Part shown: positions 343 through 5,127 of the stretch, one piece after another | How the letters are laid out: every line of letters begins with the position of its first letter | Position numbering within the stretch: the first letter of the stretch is position 1 | DNA from: Flavobacterium sp. | GTDB taxonomy: Bacteria; Bacteroidota; Bacteroidia; Flavobacteriales; Flavobacteriaceae | Length of the DNA stretch: 5,127 nt | Direction: 5' to 3' | Assembly (NCBI GenBank): GCA_030682755.1 | Contig: JAUXNR010000006.1 | Location: 1-5,127, forward strand | Translations under genes and position numbers: made by a program | Notes under the pieces: generated by a model | The model's database searches: none | What the model saw: the letters and a program-made list of their open reading frames with translations, nothing else | Told to the model about the DNA's origin: nothing

Positions 343-1659
343 TTAATATGTATTTGCAAAAGTCGCTTTAAATTGAAGGTAGGGTGGCATTGCAATAATT
401 CGTTCCCACCAACTTGCAATATCTACAGTATTTAAATGTGTAACTAAACTTTCAATAGTGATATGAAGTACTTGCTGTTCTAAAAAAAAATCATAAAAAG
501 GTTTAATAATTTCTGTGGGTTGATCATTGGTAAGTAACCCAACTATAGGAAAATCAACATGGATACACTCCAAAAAAATGGTTGCAGGAATAACTGGTGT
601 TATAACAACACTCACCTGTTTCATCTCTTCCTGTATCCTTTTCAAACCTGAGGTAAGAGTGAAACAGGAAGGAACAACATTTTTAAAACTGCTTTTTCTG
701 GAAAAAACTTTATTGGTAGGTCTTGGCCTCGCAAGCAAAAGCTTGTAGTGATCCATATCTAAATTTGCTTCAAGATAGTCTAAAACTGGTGCATTTTGTT
801 TCTTAATTGCTTGAGGTCGTAAACCTGTTAAGGGAATCAAAATCCCTGAAGTGGCACTAGTTACGCTAATTGAATCAAATCTTTCCTTGAACTTTATAAG
901 CCTGTAGGCTTTCCATGGCTCATCTTTTTCATCTAGTTTCCAACCCCAGGTCCTGTAAACATCTGCTAACTTTCTTTCACTTACATGTACACCATAGTTC
1001 ATTTCCCCATAATAAGCTCCATGCTGGTACCAAAATAGTTTAGCCCCATTTTCGGTATACTTAGCAAGTACCCATTTATGAAAATTGGATCCCAAATGAT
1101 AGTGAAAAATTTTTTCAGTAGGGTTGAACAATGGAATTCTATTGAAAACAGTCTCAAATCCTTCCAACAACTCCGCAGGGATTCCGTTAATTAAATTTGA
1201 TAAATTAGAGTCATACAAAGAGCAAATTTCAAGCAACCGTTCTCGGGTTTCTTTTTTGAAACGTACTTTTAAATCCCACATATAATAAGGCAAGGCTTTA
1301 CCAAGATCGTCATCAACTTCTGATAATTTAGGAAAGCCAATATGTAAGGAGTTATGATTTTTTATTACATTGTAAACCTCGTGACTTTTTGAACGTTTAA
1401 ATAAAACTTTGAAGGTATGGATAAGTTTTTTTTTCCATAGATCCGTTTTTTTAATTGCATTTGATTTATTTTCTACTCCTGCTTGCTTAGTTATATAACC
1501 TTGTATGTAGTCAGATAAAATAAAACTCCAAAACCTGATAGAATAATTTACCCCATGAAATTCATTTAATACTTCTACCAATACAGGGAGATAGTTGCTA
1601 AACAGAGCGTGTCGTTCAGGAGAAAAAGTGCTTTTTAAATCTGTAACAGTATGAATCAT
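343..1659 (-). CDS. LIC12162-family putative transferase, candidate pseudaminic acid transferase
   Basis: A complete 438-residue protein resembling the LIC12162 family of putative transferases found in LPS and polysaccharide loci. Recognisable landmarks are LNEFHGVNYSIRFWSFIL (31-48), the aromatic/His motif FWYQHGAYYGE (209-219), YRTWGW (235-240), and a late PATIFLECIHVDFPIVGLL segment (358-376) that corresponds to the family's TTFLEALA-P region, where an activated donor would bind in a GT-B-like fold. No signal peptide or membrane segment is visible, so a cytoplasmic or peripheral location is likely. As I recall, many relatives are longer (over 550 residues) with extra N-terminal sequence; this one begins only about 30 residues before the LNEFHG block, so it looks like a short version. 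Its ATG forms an ATGA overlap with the pseI stop, implying translational coupling. That position makes it a candidate for moving pseudaminic acid from CMP-Pse to a glycan. The family call is fairly secure; the substrate is inference. Confidence 0.75.
   Translation of the reverse strand: MIHTVTDLKSTFSPERHALFSNYLPVLVEVLNEFHGVNYSIRFWSFILSDYIQGYITKQAGVENKSNAIKKTDLWKKKLIHTFKVLFKRSKSHEVYNVIKNHNSLHIGFPKLSEVDDDLGKALPYYMWDLKVRFKKETRERLLEICSLYDSNLSNLINGIPAELLEGFETVFNRIPLFNPTEKIFHYHLGSNFHKWVLAKYTENGAKLFWYQHGAYYGEMNYGVHVSERKLADVYRTWGWKLDEKDEPWKAYRLIKFKERFDSISVTSATSGILIPLTGLRPQAIKKQNAPVLDYLEANLDMDHYKLLLARPRPTNKVFSRKSSFKNVVPSCFTLTSGLKRIQEEMKQVSVVITPVIPATIFLECIHVDFPIVGLLTNDQPTEIIKPFYDFFLEQQVLHITIESLVTHLNTVDIASWWERIIAMPPYLQFKATFANTY
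1656..1659 (-). other. ATGA stop/start overlap coupling pseI to the LIC12162-family transferase
   Basis: The TGA of pseI (1658-1656) and the ATG of the next gene (1659-1657) share bases. This is the typical arrangement for termination-reinitiation, and it argues that synthase and transferase are produced together. The same arrangement occurs at 4265-4268 between the NeuB-like and YhcH-like genes. Confidence 0.8.
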
Positions 1660-2699
1660 ATACCAGTAAGCATATCAAAAGTTAAACGGGTGCCTTTTTC
1701 TAAAGCTTTTATAGCCTTTGTGCCCAAAACTTCGGGTAAATGCTTCGGATGCATACCAAACCCGGGGCGAATGGAGCGTACGTTATTTGCTGTAATCACT
1801 TCTCCTTTCTTGATGTCTTCCACTACGTATAACGAACGACAAAAATCTTTTCCTTTTTGTTGCTTGTCCGTCAAGCTATAATCCACCACCCCTATCGCTT
1901 GTTCCGCTTCACGAACCGCTTTGACCATGGCCGTAAATTCTGCCTCATTCATTGAAAAAGAGGCATCCGGACCACCAATAGAACGATCCAATATAAAATG
2001 CTTTTCGATAATTTTACCACCAAAACAAGTGGCCACTATTGGAGCCGTACTACCCATCGTATGGTCCGACAAACCGGTAATGACCCCAAATTTTTCGGCC
2101 ATGTCTCTCACCATAACCAAATTGGCTTCGTTTAGAGGTGCAGGATAACTGGAGGTACATTTTAACAAAGCAATATCATAATTCCCCATACGATGACACG
2201 CATCCAAAGCCAAACGGATATCAGCTTCTTCAGCAATACCGGTAGAAATAATCACTGGTTTGCCTTTAGAAGCAACCAACTCAATCAACGGAATATCCGT
2301 AATTTCAAAAGAAGCTATCTTATAAGCCGGCGTGTTTAATGCTTCCAAAAGAGCTACCGAAGTGGGATCAAAGGGGGAAGAAAAACAAACCAAACCTTCT
2401 TCGGCTGCTGCTTTAAAGAGGGTTTCGTGCCACTCCCATGGGGTATAGGCCTCCTCATACAATTCATATAAATTCTTCCCTTCCCAGATGGTACCTTTGA
2501 TTAAAAAATCGTCTTTCTTAGAATCAATAGTAATCGTATCTGCCCGATAGGTTTGCAATTTAATGCAATCTGCACCGGCTCTTTTGGCTGCCTTTATGGT
2601 TTCCAGGGCTACGTCAATACTACCATTATGATTTGCGGAGAGTTCCGCTATGATAAATACTTTTGAAGTAGCATCTATATTATGAGTACCTATTTTCAT
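1656..2699 (-). CDS. pseI: Pseudaminic acid synthase PseI
   Basis: PseI condenses 6-deoxy-AltdiNAc (2,4-diacetamido-2,4,6-trideoxy-L-altrose) with phosphoenolpyruvate to give pseudaminic acid, in the cytoplasm. The 347 residues match full-length PseI. The N-terminal TIM-barrel domain carries FIIAELSANHNGS (15-27), KLQTY (47-51), YTPWEWHETLF (85-95), AYKIASFE (125-132), LLKCTSSYPAP (178-188), the metal-binding His of GLSDHT (H213) and of IEKHF (H234), and GGPDASFSM (242-250). The C-terminal SAF (antifreeze-like) domain has FCRSLYVVEDIKKGEVIT (286-303, substrate Arg R288) and RPGFGMHPKHLPEVLG (311-326). The SFE and GMHPK wording separates PseI from NeuB and LegI. All catalytic positions I can judge look intact. 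The ATG lies 20 nt inside the end of the upstream acetyltransferase, and the stop forms ATGA with the next start, so expression is probably coupled. Its first half has about 44% G+C by hand count, the highest in the window. Confidence 0.95.
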   Translation of the reverse strand: MKIGTHNIDATSKVFIIAELSANHNGSIDVALETIKAAKRAGADCIKLQTYRADTITIDSKKDDFLIKGTIWEGKNLYELYEEAYTPWEWHETLFKAAAEEGLVCFSSPFDPTSVALLEALNTPAYKIASFEITDIPLIELVASKGKPVIISTGIAEEADIRLALDACHRMGNYDIALLKCTSSYPAPLNEANLVMVRDMAEKFGVITGLSDHTMGSTAPIVATCFGGKIIEKHFILDRSIGGPDASFSMNEAEFTAMVKAVREAEQAIGVVDYSLTDKQQKGKDFCRSLYVVEDIKKGEVITANNVRSIRPGFGMHPKHLPEVLGTKAIKALEKGTRLTFDMLTGI

Positions 2700-3261
2700 T
2701 TTCTTTTACTGCTTTTATTTCTTCTTCTGAAAAATACTTTGGATTGTAACAACCCACTAAAATGCGGTCTTCATTTTTTTCCTCTACCCAATAGAAACCT
2801 TTCAATCGCCCTTCAATAATCCAGCCTGCTCTGGTGTAAGCTTTGATGGAGGGGATATTGGATGCATACATGCCACCATATAACTTCCTGATGTCAAATT
2901 TTTCAAATGCCAATTGATTTCCCAATTGAATGGCATCGACCGACAATCCTTTACCTAAGTAATCCCGGTTACCAATTAAGGCGACCAAATCCGACGTTTT
3001 ATGAACAAAATGAATTGGCCCTAATTTAATGGTTCCGATTAAGGTATCGGTATCATTGGTAAAGATACCATAGGTGAATAGATTACCTGATTTTTTACCC
3101 TCTTCAAGAGAAGCTAATAATTTTTCTTTGGTAATTTTATTTTTGGAATTGGTATAATATTTCATCAACTCAGCATCATCAAACCACGCCATTACAGTAG
3201 CATCGATGTCTGCATCGGTTATTTCTTTGAGGTAGAGTCGGTCTCCTTTAAATACTTCCAT
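2680..3261 (-). CDS. GNAT family N-acetyltransferase (RimJ/RimL-like), probably in the pseudaminic acid pathway
   Basis: A 193-residue GNAT acetyltransferase that would move an acetyl group from acetyl-CoA to an amine. It opens with GDRLYLKEITDADID (6-20), the usual beta-1 of RimJ/RimL-like GNATs. LIGTIKL (74-80) is the central strand, followed by VALIGNRDYLGKGLSVDA (93-110), in which the LGKG loop is the CoA pyrophosphate-binding turn. KLYGGMYASNIPSIKAYTRAGW (126-147) is the standard C-terminal motif with Asn and the AY-x-x-AGW ending. The acidic, Lys-rich tail (177-193) overlaps the pseI start by 20 nt, and the upstream acetyltransferase ends only 2 nt before this ATG. The location points to a small-sugar substrate rather than a ribosomal protein. 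It could be the PseH that acetylates the 4-amine of UDP-4-amino-4,6-dideoxy-AltNAc, or it could modify the finished nonulosonic acid. The family is clear, the exact substrate is not. Confidence 0.88.
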   Translation of the reverse strand: MEVFKGDRLYLKEITDADIDATVMAWFDDAELMKYYTNSKNKITKEKLLASLEEGKKSGNLFTYGIFTNDTDTLIGTIKLGPIHFVHKTSDLVALIGNRDYLGKGLSVDAIQLGNQLAFEKFDIRKLYGGMYASNIPSIKAYTRAGWIIEGRLKGFYWVEEKNEDRILVGCYNPKYFSEEEIKAVKENENRYS

Positions 3262-3263
3262 AA

Positions 3264-3809
3264 TTAATTGATTTTACTATGTATTACCACATCTATAAAT
3301 TTATTTTCAAAATAACAATGCTCTTTTAATCGGGCTTCTTCCAGATAACCAGCTGATTCAAAAACGACATACAAATGGGGCCGCAAATCAAAGGCATGGG
3401 TGTAAATTTTATGAAATGATAGCTCTTGAAAAGCCACCTGTTCCAACAACTGCAAATAAGCCATCCAAATCTCATGAAACCGTTCCGCTTCCAAAGACGT
3501 ATTCATAATAAATGAAATTTCGGCGTTTTTATCTACCCAATTGATGTGAACTAATCCACCATAACCAATGCAAACTTCATTTTCAAGAAAAGAAAAAAGC
3601 AGTTGGTTGGGTTGTTCTTGTTCAAACAATTGTGCGACAGTAGTGGTGAAATACTGTTCCTGATCGATTTCCGTCAGCGGTTTTTGCTGCCGCAAATGAT
3701 ACAATTGTTCATTCCGCCACTGCATGATTTTTAATTTATCCTCAAATCTGATAGGAACAATCGAAAAGTTTTCTTTTGTAAAAACCTGATGTTGGAGTAT
3801 TTTGTACAA
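3264..3809 (-). CDS. GNAT-like acetyltransferase, possible PseH, TTG start
   Basis: A 181-residue GNAT-fold protein. The segment FSIVPIRFEDKLKIMQWRNEQ (15-35) resembles the KWRN motif near the N-terminus of PseH, which acetylates the 4-amine of the pseudaminic acid precursor. IGYGGLVHINW (81-91) is the central strand, AEISFIMN (96-103) follows, and HKIYTHAFDLRPHLYVVFESAGY (133-155) corresponds to the C-terminal GNAT motif. The usual Gly-rich CoA loop (xxGxG) after the EISF strand is absent; NTSLEAERFHEIW stands in its place. The first codon is TTG (3809-3807), preceded in frame by ATT and the TAG of the yhcH-like gene. The first ATG is codon 29 and would remove the first strand, so TTG is preferred. 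The stop lies 2 nt before the next ATG. Assignment as PseH rests on the N-terminal motif and on position next to pseI; the second acetyltransferase is the alternative. Confidence 0.78.
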   Translation of the reverse strand: MYKILQHQVFTKENFSIVPIRFEDKLKIMQWRNEQLYHLRQQKPLTEIDQEQYFTTTVAQLFEQEQPNQLLFSFLENEVCIGYGGLVHINWVDKNAEISFIMNTSLEAERFHEIWMAYLQLLEQVAFQELSFHKIYTHAFDLRPHLYVVFESAGYLEEARLKEHCYFENKFIDVVIHSKIN

Positions 3810-3815
3810 AATCTA
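3807..3815 (-). other. In-frame TAG-ATT-TTG junction between yhcH-like and acetyltransferase genes
   Basis: Read on the minus strand, the yhcH-like gene ends in TAG, followed by ATT and then TTG TAC AAA in the same frame. No ATG lies near the start of the acetyltransferase, so TTG (or less likely ATT) must initiate, probably helped by ribosomes finishing the gene before. No Shine-Dalgarno sequence is visible; the preceding bases are A/T-rich. Confidence 0.65.
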
Positions 3816-4268
3816 TTTTATTATTGGAATCTTAAAAACAATTTTCTTTACATATTCGCATCCTTTACTCATTGCCATATGAGCAGAATCAGGTGAAATC
3901 AAACAAAAGGTATTCTGACTAATTTCGAATTTTTGATCATAATTGTCTTCATAGAGAATATAATCAGAAGATTCATTATAAGCTTCTTTAATTGAATTAC
4001 AATCTTTGACTGATTTAGAAACAATAATATCTACACCTGATAGAGTATAATGTAAATCATAATGCTCTCTGTGAGCTTCTAGAATATCTTTATATTCGGC
4101 ATTAAAAGAACCTTCTAAAAAAATAGCAGTTATATCATTATCCAAAATATATTTTTTCCCTATTACCTCATTTGCAAGATCATTTTGAAATAAATACCTG
4201 TAGATGACTCCCCAATGTTCTTTATTCAAATAAACTTTATAATCGTTAAAATTTTTTGATACTATCAT
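3813..4268 (-). CDS. YhcH/YjgK/YiaL (NanQ-like) family protein, probable sugar anomerase
   Basis: A 151-residue protein of the YhcH/YjgK/YiaL (DUF386) family, about the usual length, with a cupin-like single domain. The family signature E-x-H-x(4)-D is present in EAHREHYDLHYTLSGVDII (64-82; E64, H66, D71), and the second signature lies in CLISPDSAHMAMSKG (122-136, with H130 as a likely active-site or metal residue), followed by KKIVFKIPI. The best-studied member, NanQ of E. coli, speeds interconversion of sialic acid anomers; other members are linked to beta-galactosidase or pentose catabolism. Here the gene shares an ATGA overlap with a NeuB-like synthase gene, so it more likely acts on that enzyme's product or substrate in a biosynthetic setting. 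No signal peptide is visible. The stop is TAG, 3 nt before the TTG start of the next gene and in the same frame. Base composition is very AT-rich (about 27% G+C), like its upstream partner and unlike the genes downstream. Confidence 0.85.
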   Translation of the reverse strand: MIVSKNFNDYKVYLNKEHWGVIYRYLFQNDLANEVIGKKYILDNDITAIFLEGSFNAEYKDILEAHREHYDLHYTLSGVDIIVSKSVKDCNSIKEAYNESSDYILYEDNYDQKFEISQNTFCLISPDSAHMAMSKGCEYVKKIVFKIPIIK

Positions 4269-5127
4269 GAAGAAATATATAAGATTGGCTGGTCTTCTTT
4301 TACTTCTTGTAAAAGCGATTTTCCAACAATATCATCAGAATAGATAAATCCACTCTCACTCTCTATCATCTTAAATTTTAAATCTTTTTCAGTAATAACA
4401 TGACTGGAATTAAGATTCTGAGAGGCGACTGCTTTCAACTGTCTTGATGTATATTTAATTTCTGATTCATTCAATTTATTCAAATCGGCATATTCAACAT
4501 TTAACTCATCCAATTTAGCAATATCAGAAACCATAAACCTGATTTGTTCTGGTGATGATGAAGTTATATAGTCGAATCGTTCTTCTCCCGCAACCAATGC
4601 TATGTGTTTTTCAAACATTCTGGCTCCAAGCATATAAGCAACTGATTGTAAATCTACTCCCCAATGGCTATCAAAGGGAGAATGATCGGCGTAACCTATT
4701 ATTAAATTAGTAAATTTTTCTTTCAAAAGAACTATTTTTGCAATTGAACTTTGGTGCAATTGAGTAGGAAATGCCTGGTGACCAAACATTAATACTTTAA
4801 TTTGATTACCATAAAAATCAATTTTATTTTCAATTTCTCCTAAAGTTCTACCACCTACTCCAATAATGATATCAATACCAGATTTTTTTATTATGTCCAA
4901 AATTGGTTGATAAATAAAATTTATCGGATGAATATCAATAAATTTTATGAAATGCTTCCATTCATTTACCGCTAATTCCGCTGCTAATTCATCACAAGGC
5001 ATATAGATAACATCCAATTTCAAAGTAGAACATAATTTAAATACAATCTCCCAATCAGATTTATGTATCATTGCTTTAATAAATGGTTCATAATTAGGAT
5101 TTGCCTTTGAAACAAAGGAGTCGTAAT
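4265..5127 (-). CDS. Partial gene (5' end beyond window): divergent NeuB-like sialic acid synthase homologue
   Basis: The frame is open to the right edge, with 286 visible residues starting YDSFVSKANPNYEPFIKA before the internal Met at 5071. By alignment with the PseI in this window, roughly 65-80 N-terminal residues lie outside. NeuB-family landmarks (visible numbering) are SDWEIVF (23-29), the barrel strand DIIIGVGGRTLGEI (85-98), GHQAFPT (115-121) where PseI has TSSYPAP, GYADHS (144-149; H148) and FEKHI (171-175; H174) for the metal-binding histidines, D185 for the sugar-binding Asp, and a C-terminal SAF domain from about 222, with R228 matching PseI R288. The family joins PEP to an N-acyl amino sugar, but positions expected to hold PEP are changed: the YKIAS Lys is Asp (D64), Glu is Asn (N69) and the GLSDH Ser is Ala (A146). 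It may therefore use another substrate or chemistry. It overlaps the yhcH-like gene as ATGA. Composition is about 26% G+C in the sampled part. Confidence 0.82.
   Translation of the reverse strand, partial: YDSFVSKANPNYEPFIKAMIHKSDWEIVFKLCSTLKLDVIYMPCDELAAELAVNEWKHFIKFIDIHPINFIYQPILDIIKKSGIDIIIGVGGRTLGEIENKIDFYGNQIKVLMFGHQAFPTQLHQSSIAKIVLLKEKFTNLIIGYADHSPFDSHWGVDLQSVAYMLGARMFEKHIALVAGEERFDYITSSSPEQIRFMVSDIAKLDELNVEYADLNKLNESEIKYTSRQLKAVASQNLNSSHVITEKDLKFKMIESESGFIYSDDIVGKSLLQEVKEDQPILYISS

Follow-up and report, generated by a model that had tools for sequence, protein, structure and literature searches.

Isomers of the nonulosonic acids (NulOs) decorate flagella, capsules and spores. In the synthase NeuB of Neisseria meningitidis (NmNeuB), whose numbering is used here unless stated otherwise, S154 and K53 reportedly have roles in the binding of phosphoenolpyruvate (PEP). 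A structure comparison places positions 110, 129, 131, 132, 182 and 184 around PEP, with 132, 182 and 184 less conserved, and reports that neuraminic (Neu), legionaminic (Leg) and pseudaminic (Pse) acid enzymes share a conserved region around PEP and C1 of the sugar analogue (PMC7371886). The R314A variant of NmNeuB (PMC6795526) and the R322A variant of C. crescentus NeuB (PMC7591256) are both reported to be inactive. In B. subtilis, the NeuB-family protein SpsE is described as the synthase of a NulO pathway that also has the cytidylyltransferase SpsF (PMC7439481), and in Acinetobacter the oxidoreductases ElaA, AciB and AciE are described as acting beside a complete NulO pathway, with the cytidine monophosphate (CMP) derivative CMP-Leg as proposed substrate (PMC5595891, PMC9676051). 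Here we analyze a gene for a NeuB-like protein in a 5,127-nucleotide stretch of Flavobacterium sp. DNA (the window; C225:1-5127 of a fragmented draft genome in 950 contigs). Judging from sequence comparisons, we give an even chance to this being a NeuB-fold protein with a rebuilt PEP pocket that acts on a finished NulO, together with SpsF at the likely CMP-NulO step, and not a PEP-dependent synthase.

The NeuB-like protein and its branch

The protein is a member of the NeuB family. As originally predicted, its reading frame is intact over 286 residues on the minus strand; the 5' end is lost at the right contig end, and full-length relatives have about 330 residues. It matches PF03102 with 74.5 bits (Pfam curated cut-off, 22.1), and its predicted structure is a confident NeuB fold, with a TIM barrel and an antifreeze-like cap domain. 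Without its ~45 N-terminal residues, it falls short of the synthase equivalog cut-offs of TIGR03569 (69.2 of 399.65 bits) and TIGR03586 (50.1 of 340.25 bits).

To compare pocket residues, we aligned the protein with the window's own PseI, re-reading columns under two MAFFT settings, and took NmNeuB numbering from a HMMER alignment (PseI 108, 127, 130, 132, 152, 211, 213, 234, 245 and 311 corresponding to NmNeuB T110, K129, S132, E134, S154, S213, H215, H236, D247 and R314). The alignment bears out the six substitutions first noted against PseI (S108 to M42, K127 to D64, S130 to P67, E132 to N69, S152 to G89 and S211 to A146) and the retention of three metal and sugar residues (H213 as H148, H234 as H174 and D245 as D185). 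R228, put forward as a retained SAF-domain arginine matching R288, does not align with that residue; the catalytic cap arginine is PseI R311, and M253 takes its place. Because the R314 equivalent is a methionine, a sugar-site residue has also been lost, so that the proposed preservation of both sites stands for the metal histidines and D185 but not for the sugar site as a whole. Likewise, T110, K129, S154 and S213 are all replaced, but the loss of every PEP-side residue does not hold: position 53, which in this protein falls outside the window, is Lys in all 149 branch members that reach it.

A homologue search returned 51 proteins at E ≤ 0.001, counting the window protein itself, and a further search with an alignment returned 323 at E ≤ 1e-10 (120 listed). 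Among the relatives, 34 have 55-69% identity to the window protein, and a scan of viral contigs added eight distant relatives (22-29% identical). In a comparison set of 249 NeuB-family proteins, branch-rich by choice and with proteins under 260 residues dropped, we defined the branch by an acid at position 129 (151 proteins), which is hence true of it by definition. The tree was built after removal of nine PEP and cap columns (129 and eight others) and of rows with under 200 filled columns or at least 72% identity to a kept row. On the 114 rows kept, the 40 branch representatives form one side of a tree branch with a Shimodaira-Hasegawa-like approximate likelihood ratio test (SH-aLRT) value of 99. 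The window's sub-branch is a clade sharing the GHQxFPT and IDIHP wording that the original prediction had singled out, within a wider branch with wording of the G[FH]Qx[FY]P and I[HS] type.

The T/S110, K129, S154 and S213 set reads M, D, G and A in the window protein and is alike in nearly all of the branch, and position 314 is Met or Leu in most of it. Compared with NmNeuB, nearly all members differ at 110, 129, 131, 182 and 184, the last being variable among ordinary enzymes too. The change of Ser to Pro at 132 is true of the window's sub-branch but not of the branch at large, where 110 of 151 members retain Ser and 41 differ. Both metal-ligand histidines are present in all 151 members, and E25, K53, H215, E234, H236 and D247 are invariant where present. 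Residues fixed in the branch and rare elsewhere include A12/F13, H110, G133, R137, G159, Q161, A190, R227, Y269 and R272 (P0002 numbering); by predicted secondary structure, H110, G133-R137, G159-Q161 and A190 lie at the catalytic ends of barrel strands. Since near-invariant residues of its own sit at the barrel mouth in a separate branch, the pocket gives the impression of having been rebuilt under selection. At the same loci, the ordinary synthases retain K129, S132, S154, S213 and R314 in 24 of 24 cases while the positions changed in the branch hardly vary within it, which excludes chance or decay and agrees with the initial view that this is not simple decay.

Databases name these proteins N-acetylneuraminate synthase family, sialic acid synthase SpsE or N,N'-diacetyllegionaminate synthase, and in the open-licence PMC literature we found no description of the branch, of a NeuB-SpsF fusion or of a PEP-less NeuB. 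A separate NeuB-family group of ~500-550 residues (L017, L058, L060, L062-L064, L066, L068-L070, L072-L074, L084 and L086) keeps K129 and S213, and S154 in all but L068; it has Thr (Leu in L063 and L084) in place of the Asp before the first metal His and no Arg at the 314 column.

Pairing with an SpsF-type cytidylyltransferase

We read neighborhoods at 33 loci holding 34 branch open reading frames (ORFs), taking distances without stop codons. For 32 of the 34, the NeuB-like gene has an SpsF-type cytidylyltransferase gene no more than 26 bp away, usually overlapping, and the two ORFs with no adjoining SpsF are both at contig ends. A second contig of the window's genome (C761) carries an ABC transporter, PseB, a PseC-type aminotransferase, an aldo/keto reductase, two Gfo/Idh oxidoreductases and an SpsF-type gene whose last sense codon is followed by 29 bases before the contig breaks off. 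L034, the nearest of the loci read, shows this same order from the aminotransferase on and continues into the NeuB-like gene and YhcH; the pair is therefore very likely present in the window's genome, spanning two contig ends. In an even sample of 395 phylum genomes, five have the branch and all five have the paired SpsF, which for the window's genome is counted across the contig gap. The full-length PF02348 proteins of 10 of 24 genomes are just the paired SpsF and one other, taken as KdsB though not scanned as such; G163 and G227 have no PF02348 protein but the paired SpsF. With no other besides the presumed KdsB, the paired SpsF is by sequence the best candidate for CMP-NulO synthetase in those genomes.

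A related association occurs within single polypeptides. One search seeded with one NeuB-like/SpsF fusion, with scoring confined to the 7996 candidates that had the most words in common, gave 336 proteins at E ≤ 1e-20, and all 120 listed carry both PF03102 and PF02348; a SAF domain was not found in the Pfam annotation of these 120. Sources name them 'N-acetylneuraminate synthase family protein' or 'SpsE/SpsF'. Their NeuB-like domain also departs from the ordinary PEP site, in its own manner: it has ExAFxH, H131, G182 and A213 in common with the branch, retains K129, has lost K53 and carries an acid at 154 (120/120). Five loci were read, L153-L156 for fusions and L157 for the deep relative L009; each also holds a LegI- or PseI-typed NeuB-family gene, residues having been checked for the one in L129/L153. 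At L156, typing of a Pse cluster that is recognizable in other respects (PseB, PseC-like, PseG and PseI) yielded no SpsF-type gene besides the fusion; this genome has a total of two PF02348 matches.

These alterations change the charge of the pocket. Of 94 ordinary proteins, 92 have both Lys53 and Lys129 and two have a gap at 53; at 110 and 154 they carry no acid. In the branch, Lys53 is retained together with the defining acid at 129; the fusions, with K129 and the acid at 154, likewise have one Lys and one acid, at different positions. The deep members L009 and L027 retain both lysines and have an acid at 110. In all these cases there is an acid in the pocket that takes phosphate and carboxylate in NeuB, which argues against PEP and would favor a ligand bearing a single carboxylate, for example a finished NulO.

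The pathway context points the same way. A strong ordinary NeuB match is present in 31 of the 32 genomes with the branch (in G399 with an in-frame stop; G277 and G405 evidently represent one assembly); in the remaining genome, G764, there is no more than a fragment at a contig start. The early intermediates of the Pse and Leg pathways differ, and the branch is found in clusters of both types, as assigned by hand; its substrate is therefore more likely to lie downstream of the synthase and to be recognized by the part common to all NulOs. YhcH, whose family includes a sialic-acid anomerase, was typed in 15 of 33 loci, which fits the handling of free NulO and rules it out as an obligate partner; other scans add L065 and L115. 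YhcH was typed in none of 25 SpsF loci without the branch (L125-L149, ~3.7 kb), whose smaller flanks make them no fair control.

Candidate functions

On the explanation we favor, the substrate would be finished free NulO, in this genome likely pseudaminic acid, supplied by the Pse genes beside the NeuB-like gene (PseB, PseC, acetyltransferase and PseI). The remaining Lys, perhaps with the GGR arginine, would hold its one carboxylate (C1) where the phosphate and carboxylate of PEP would sit. Least surely, with the NulO in its open-chain form, the metal and the new acid/His pair might act as acid and base in aldol-type chemistry near C3-C4, the most economical option for a NeuB barrel that has metal, Lys, acid and His but no phosphate site. 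Such chemistry would make the protein a C4 epimerase or a lyase. It may thus be an isomerase, in the simplest case one that epimerizes C4 by a retro-aldol route and passes its product to SpsF for activation. 4-Epilegionaminic acid is a natural NulO (PMC5595891). The original prediction had offered another three-carbon donor, a different reaction or a partner role; given the SpsF pairing, the fusions in its cousins and the ordinary synthase in 31 of 32 genomes, the last two fit better and the first fits less well.

Several observations weigh against this explanation. The epimerase step is a mechanism by analogy. The branch is missing from 97 of 102 phylum genomes with SpsF, counted with a profile built mostly from paired SpsF and so favoring those; some of the 97 (G006, G011, G363 and G169) have a fusion or deep relative instead. 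SpsF is therefore not generally dependent on the branch. The second SpsF of L042 has no branch partner, and B. subtilis SpsF occurs without the branch, its spsF deletion reportedly being one that could not be complemented (PMC7439481). On the SpsF tree, window-type SpsF groups with L006, L008, L010 and L117, and the NeuB-like partners are not so grouped. This disagreement over the window's lineage (L113:30-800 and window 4265-5125) suggests that partners have been exchanged between NulO clusters, and strict co-evolution with one SpsF lineage is unsupported. The Pse/Leg context label needs three changes on the tree, of which well-supported forks force only one, and the link between branch and fusions consists of an SH-aLRT value of 90 with long branches, plus shared residues. 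Finally, loss of R314 is not unique, as 32 of 94 ordinary rows have no Arg there (25 with another residue, 7 with a gap), and four deep branch members retain it.

The strongest rival is that the protein is a non-catalytic partner that performs no chemistry itself but binds free NulO, or SpsF alone, and assists SpsF as a subunit that presents the substrate or regulates the enzyme. The SpsF pairing and cousin fusions suit this, as does the fact that the PEP pocket is lost and that most members no longer have R314; a pure binder, however, would be expected to let its metal site drift, and the six residues invariant where present and the new near-invariant residues at the catalytic face make it the unlikelier account. 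A synthase using another three-carbon donor (pyruvate, oxaloacetate or similar), whose second ulosonic acid the neighboring SpsF would activate, is less probable still. In its favor, the protein retains the NeuB fold and the metal site, a monocarboxylate could be held by one Lys together with an Arg, and SpsF adjoins the ordinary synthase in other loci (L125, L126, L132, L138-L140, L142 and L143), so that it may activate its neighbor's product. Against it, the ordinary synthase is nearly always present as well, in 10 of 24 genomes a single cytidylyltransferase besides the presumed KdsB would have to serve both products, and aldol synthesis is less favorable from pyruvate than from PEP. That the protein is an ordinary PEP-dependent NulO synthase whose pocket works despite its unusual residues we hold to be improbable: family membership, the metal site and K53 speak for it, but it would have to work with an acid at 129, with T110, S154 and S213 replaced, with scores far below both NCBIfam models, and with R314 replaced, a position at which the alanine variants cited above are reported inactive. 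A decaying duplicate of PseI, which a second NeuB-family gene in the same cluster might bring to mind, is refuted by the intact frame, the 34 relatives at 55-69% identity, the separate branch and its strict conservation.

A broader version of the finished-NulO explanation is tentative and doubtful in our estimate: that database 'sialic-acid synthases', stand-alone or fused to SpsF, form a class of PEP-free NulO isomerases coupled to CMP activation, in which a synthase fold reworks its own product, having reached a one-Lys-one-acid pocket by two routes, and sets the surface NulO isomer. If true, hundreds of NeuB homologues would operate without PEP, the label 'N-acetylneuraminate synthase' would be wrong for them, as would NulO structure predictions made from gene clusters partly by NeuB typing, and an unrecognized late NulO step would become testable with a defined two-gene pair.

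Organization of the locus and comparison with known systems

The main genes in the window lie on the minus strand, in the order NeuB-like, YhcH/DUF386, two GNAT acetyltransferases, PseI and a LIC12162-like transferase (Table 1). The last, following PseI, may transfer NulO to the surface. The branch is absent from all 20 same-genus genomes listed, and the cluster of the NeuB-like gene was therefore probably acquired horizontally.

Table 1. Genes of the window and selected residues of the NeuB-like protein
Feature	Position	Strand	Evidence or remark
NeuB-like protein, PEP pocket apparently rebuilt	4265..5125	-	286 residues; N-terminal ~45 residues missing at contig end
YhcH/DUF386 protein, possible anomerase	3813..4268	-	PF04074 85.6 bits; anomerase model NF040884 only 33.5 of 160 bits
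GNAT acetyltransferase, weakly PseH-like	3264..3809	-	PseH model 26.3 of 93.1 bits
Second GNAT acetyltransferase, weakly PseH-like	2680..3261	-	PseH model 30.3 of 93.1 bits
PseI, ordinary pseudaminic acid synthase	1656..2699	-	TIGR03586 501.6 bits, cut-off 340.25
LIC12162-like transferase	343..1659	-	TIGR04331 85.9 bits, below cut-off 225
M42 at NmNeuB T110 position	5000..5002	-	Alignment
D64 at NmNeuB K129 position	4934..4936	-	Alignment
H66, position 131, new branch-conserved His common to fusions	4928..4930	-	Alignment
G89 at NmNeuB S154 position	4859..4861	-	Alignment
R93 of branch-conserved GGR motif	4847..4849	-	Branch conservation
Q117 at NmNeuB N184 position	4775..4777	-	Alignment
A146 at NmNeuB S213 position	4688..4690	-	Alignment
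H148, metal His (H215)	4682..4684	-	Alignment
H174, metal His (H236)	4604..4606	-	Alignment
D185 (D247)	4571..4573	-	Alignment
M253 at catalytic cap-arginine position (R314)	4367..4369	-	Alignment

The absence of a PF02350 match in G404, G411, G415 and G417, which have Leg-type clusters, raised the idea that the NeuB-like protein stands in for a missing LegG; this was set aside, as the branch also occurs beside LegG (L117, L006 and L010) and in Pse clusters. At the place of LegG, between LegH (or LegB) and LegI, there is a protein of ~280 residues, typed in 22 ORFs (e.g., L037:6532-7368, plus strand; loci L036-L049, L051, L052, L054-L056, L065, L115 and L116). The one scanned had no Pfam match and is predicted to be GT-A glycosyltransferase-like (predicted local distance difference test score, 90.6). 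This protein and LegG (in L117, L006 and L010) do not occur together in the clusters proper, with LegG-like ORFs at the far edges of L037 and L039; going by the model, it may be a LegG replacement or an ordinary glycosyltransferase. Four loci (L036, L045, L052 and L055) contain LegB, the GT-A-like protein, LegI, SpsF, the NeuB-like protein and PtmE, with no LegC or LegH typed; their sugar may be one without a C4 amino group, or the LegC and LegH genes may lie elsewhere.

Compared with the NeuB, PseI and LegI synthases (PF03102; PDB 1XUU and 8H2C), the branch shares the modeled TIM barrel and antifreeze-like cap, the metal histidines, E25, K53, Q55 (mostly), E234 and D247, but it is changed at 110, 129, 131, 154, 182, 184, 213 and (mostly) 314, and co-occurs with an ordinary synthase in 31 of 32 genomes. 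The B. subtilis pathway likewise brings together a NeuB-family gene and an SpsF-type cytidylyltransferase gene (PMC7439481); SpsE, however, retains the Lys, Ser and SDH residues in our alignment, whereas the SpsF-paired protein described here is additional and altered. The Acinetobacter Ela/Aci modules for NulO epimers offer a parallel in that extra enzymes beside a complete pathway are reported to alter the isomer, but they differ in enzyme class, and the available text of these reports mentions no NeuB homologue (PMC5595891, PMC9676051). Like the branch, the NeuB-like/SpsF fusions tie a PEP-site-altered NeuB-like domain to SpsF, but they do so in one polypeptide and with the lysine and the acid at other positions, K129 being kept, K53 lost and the acid placed at 154.
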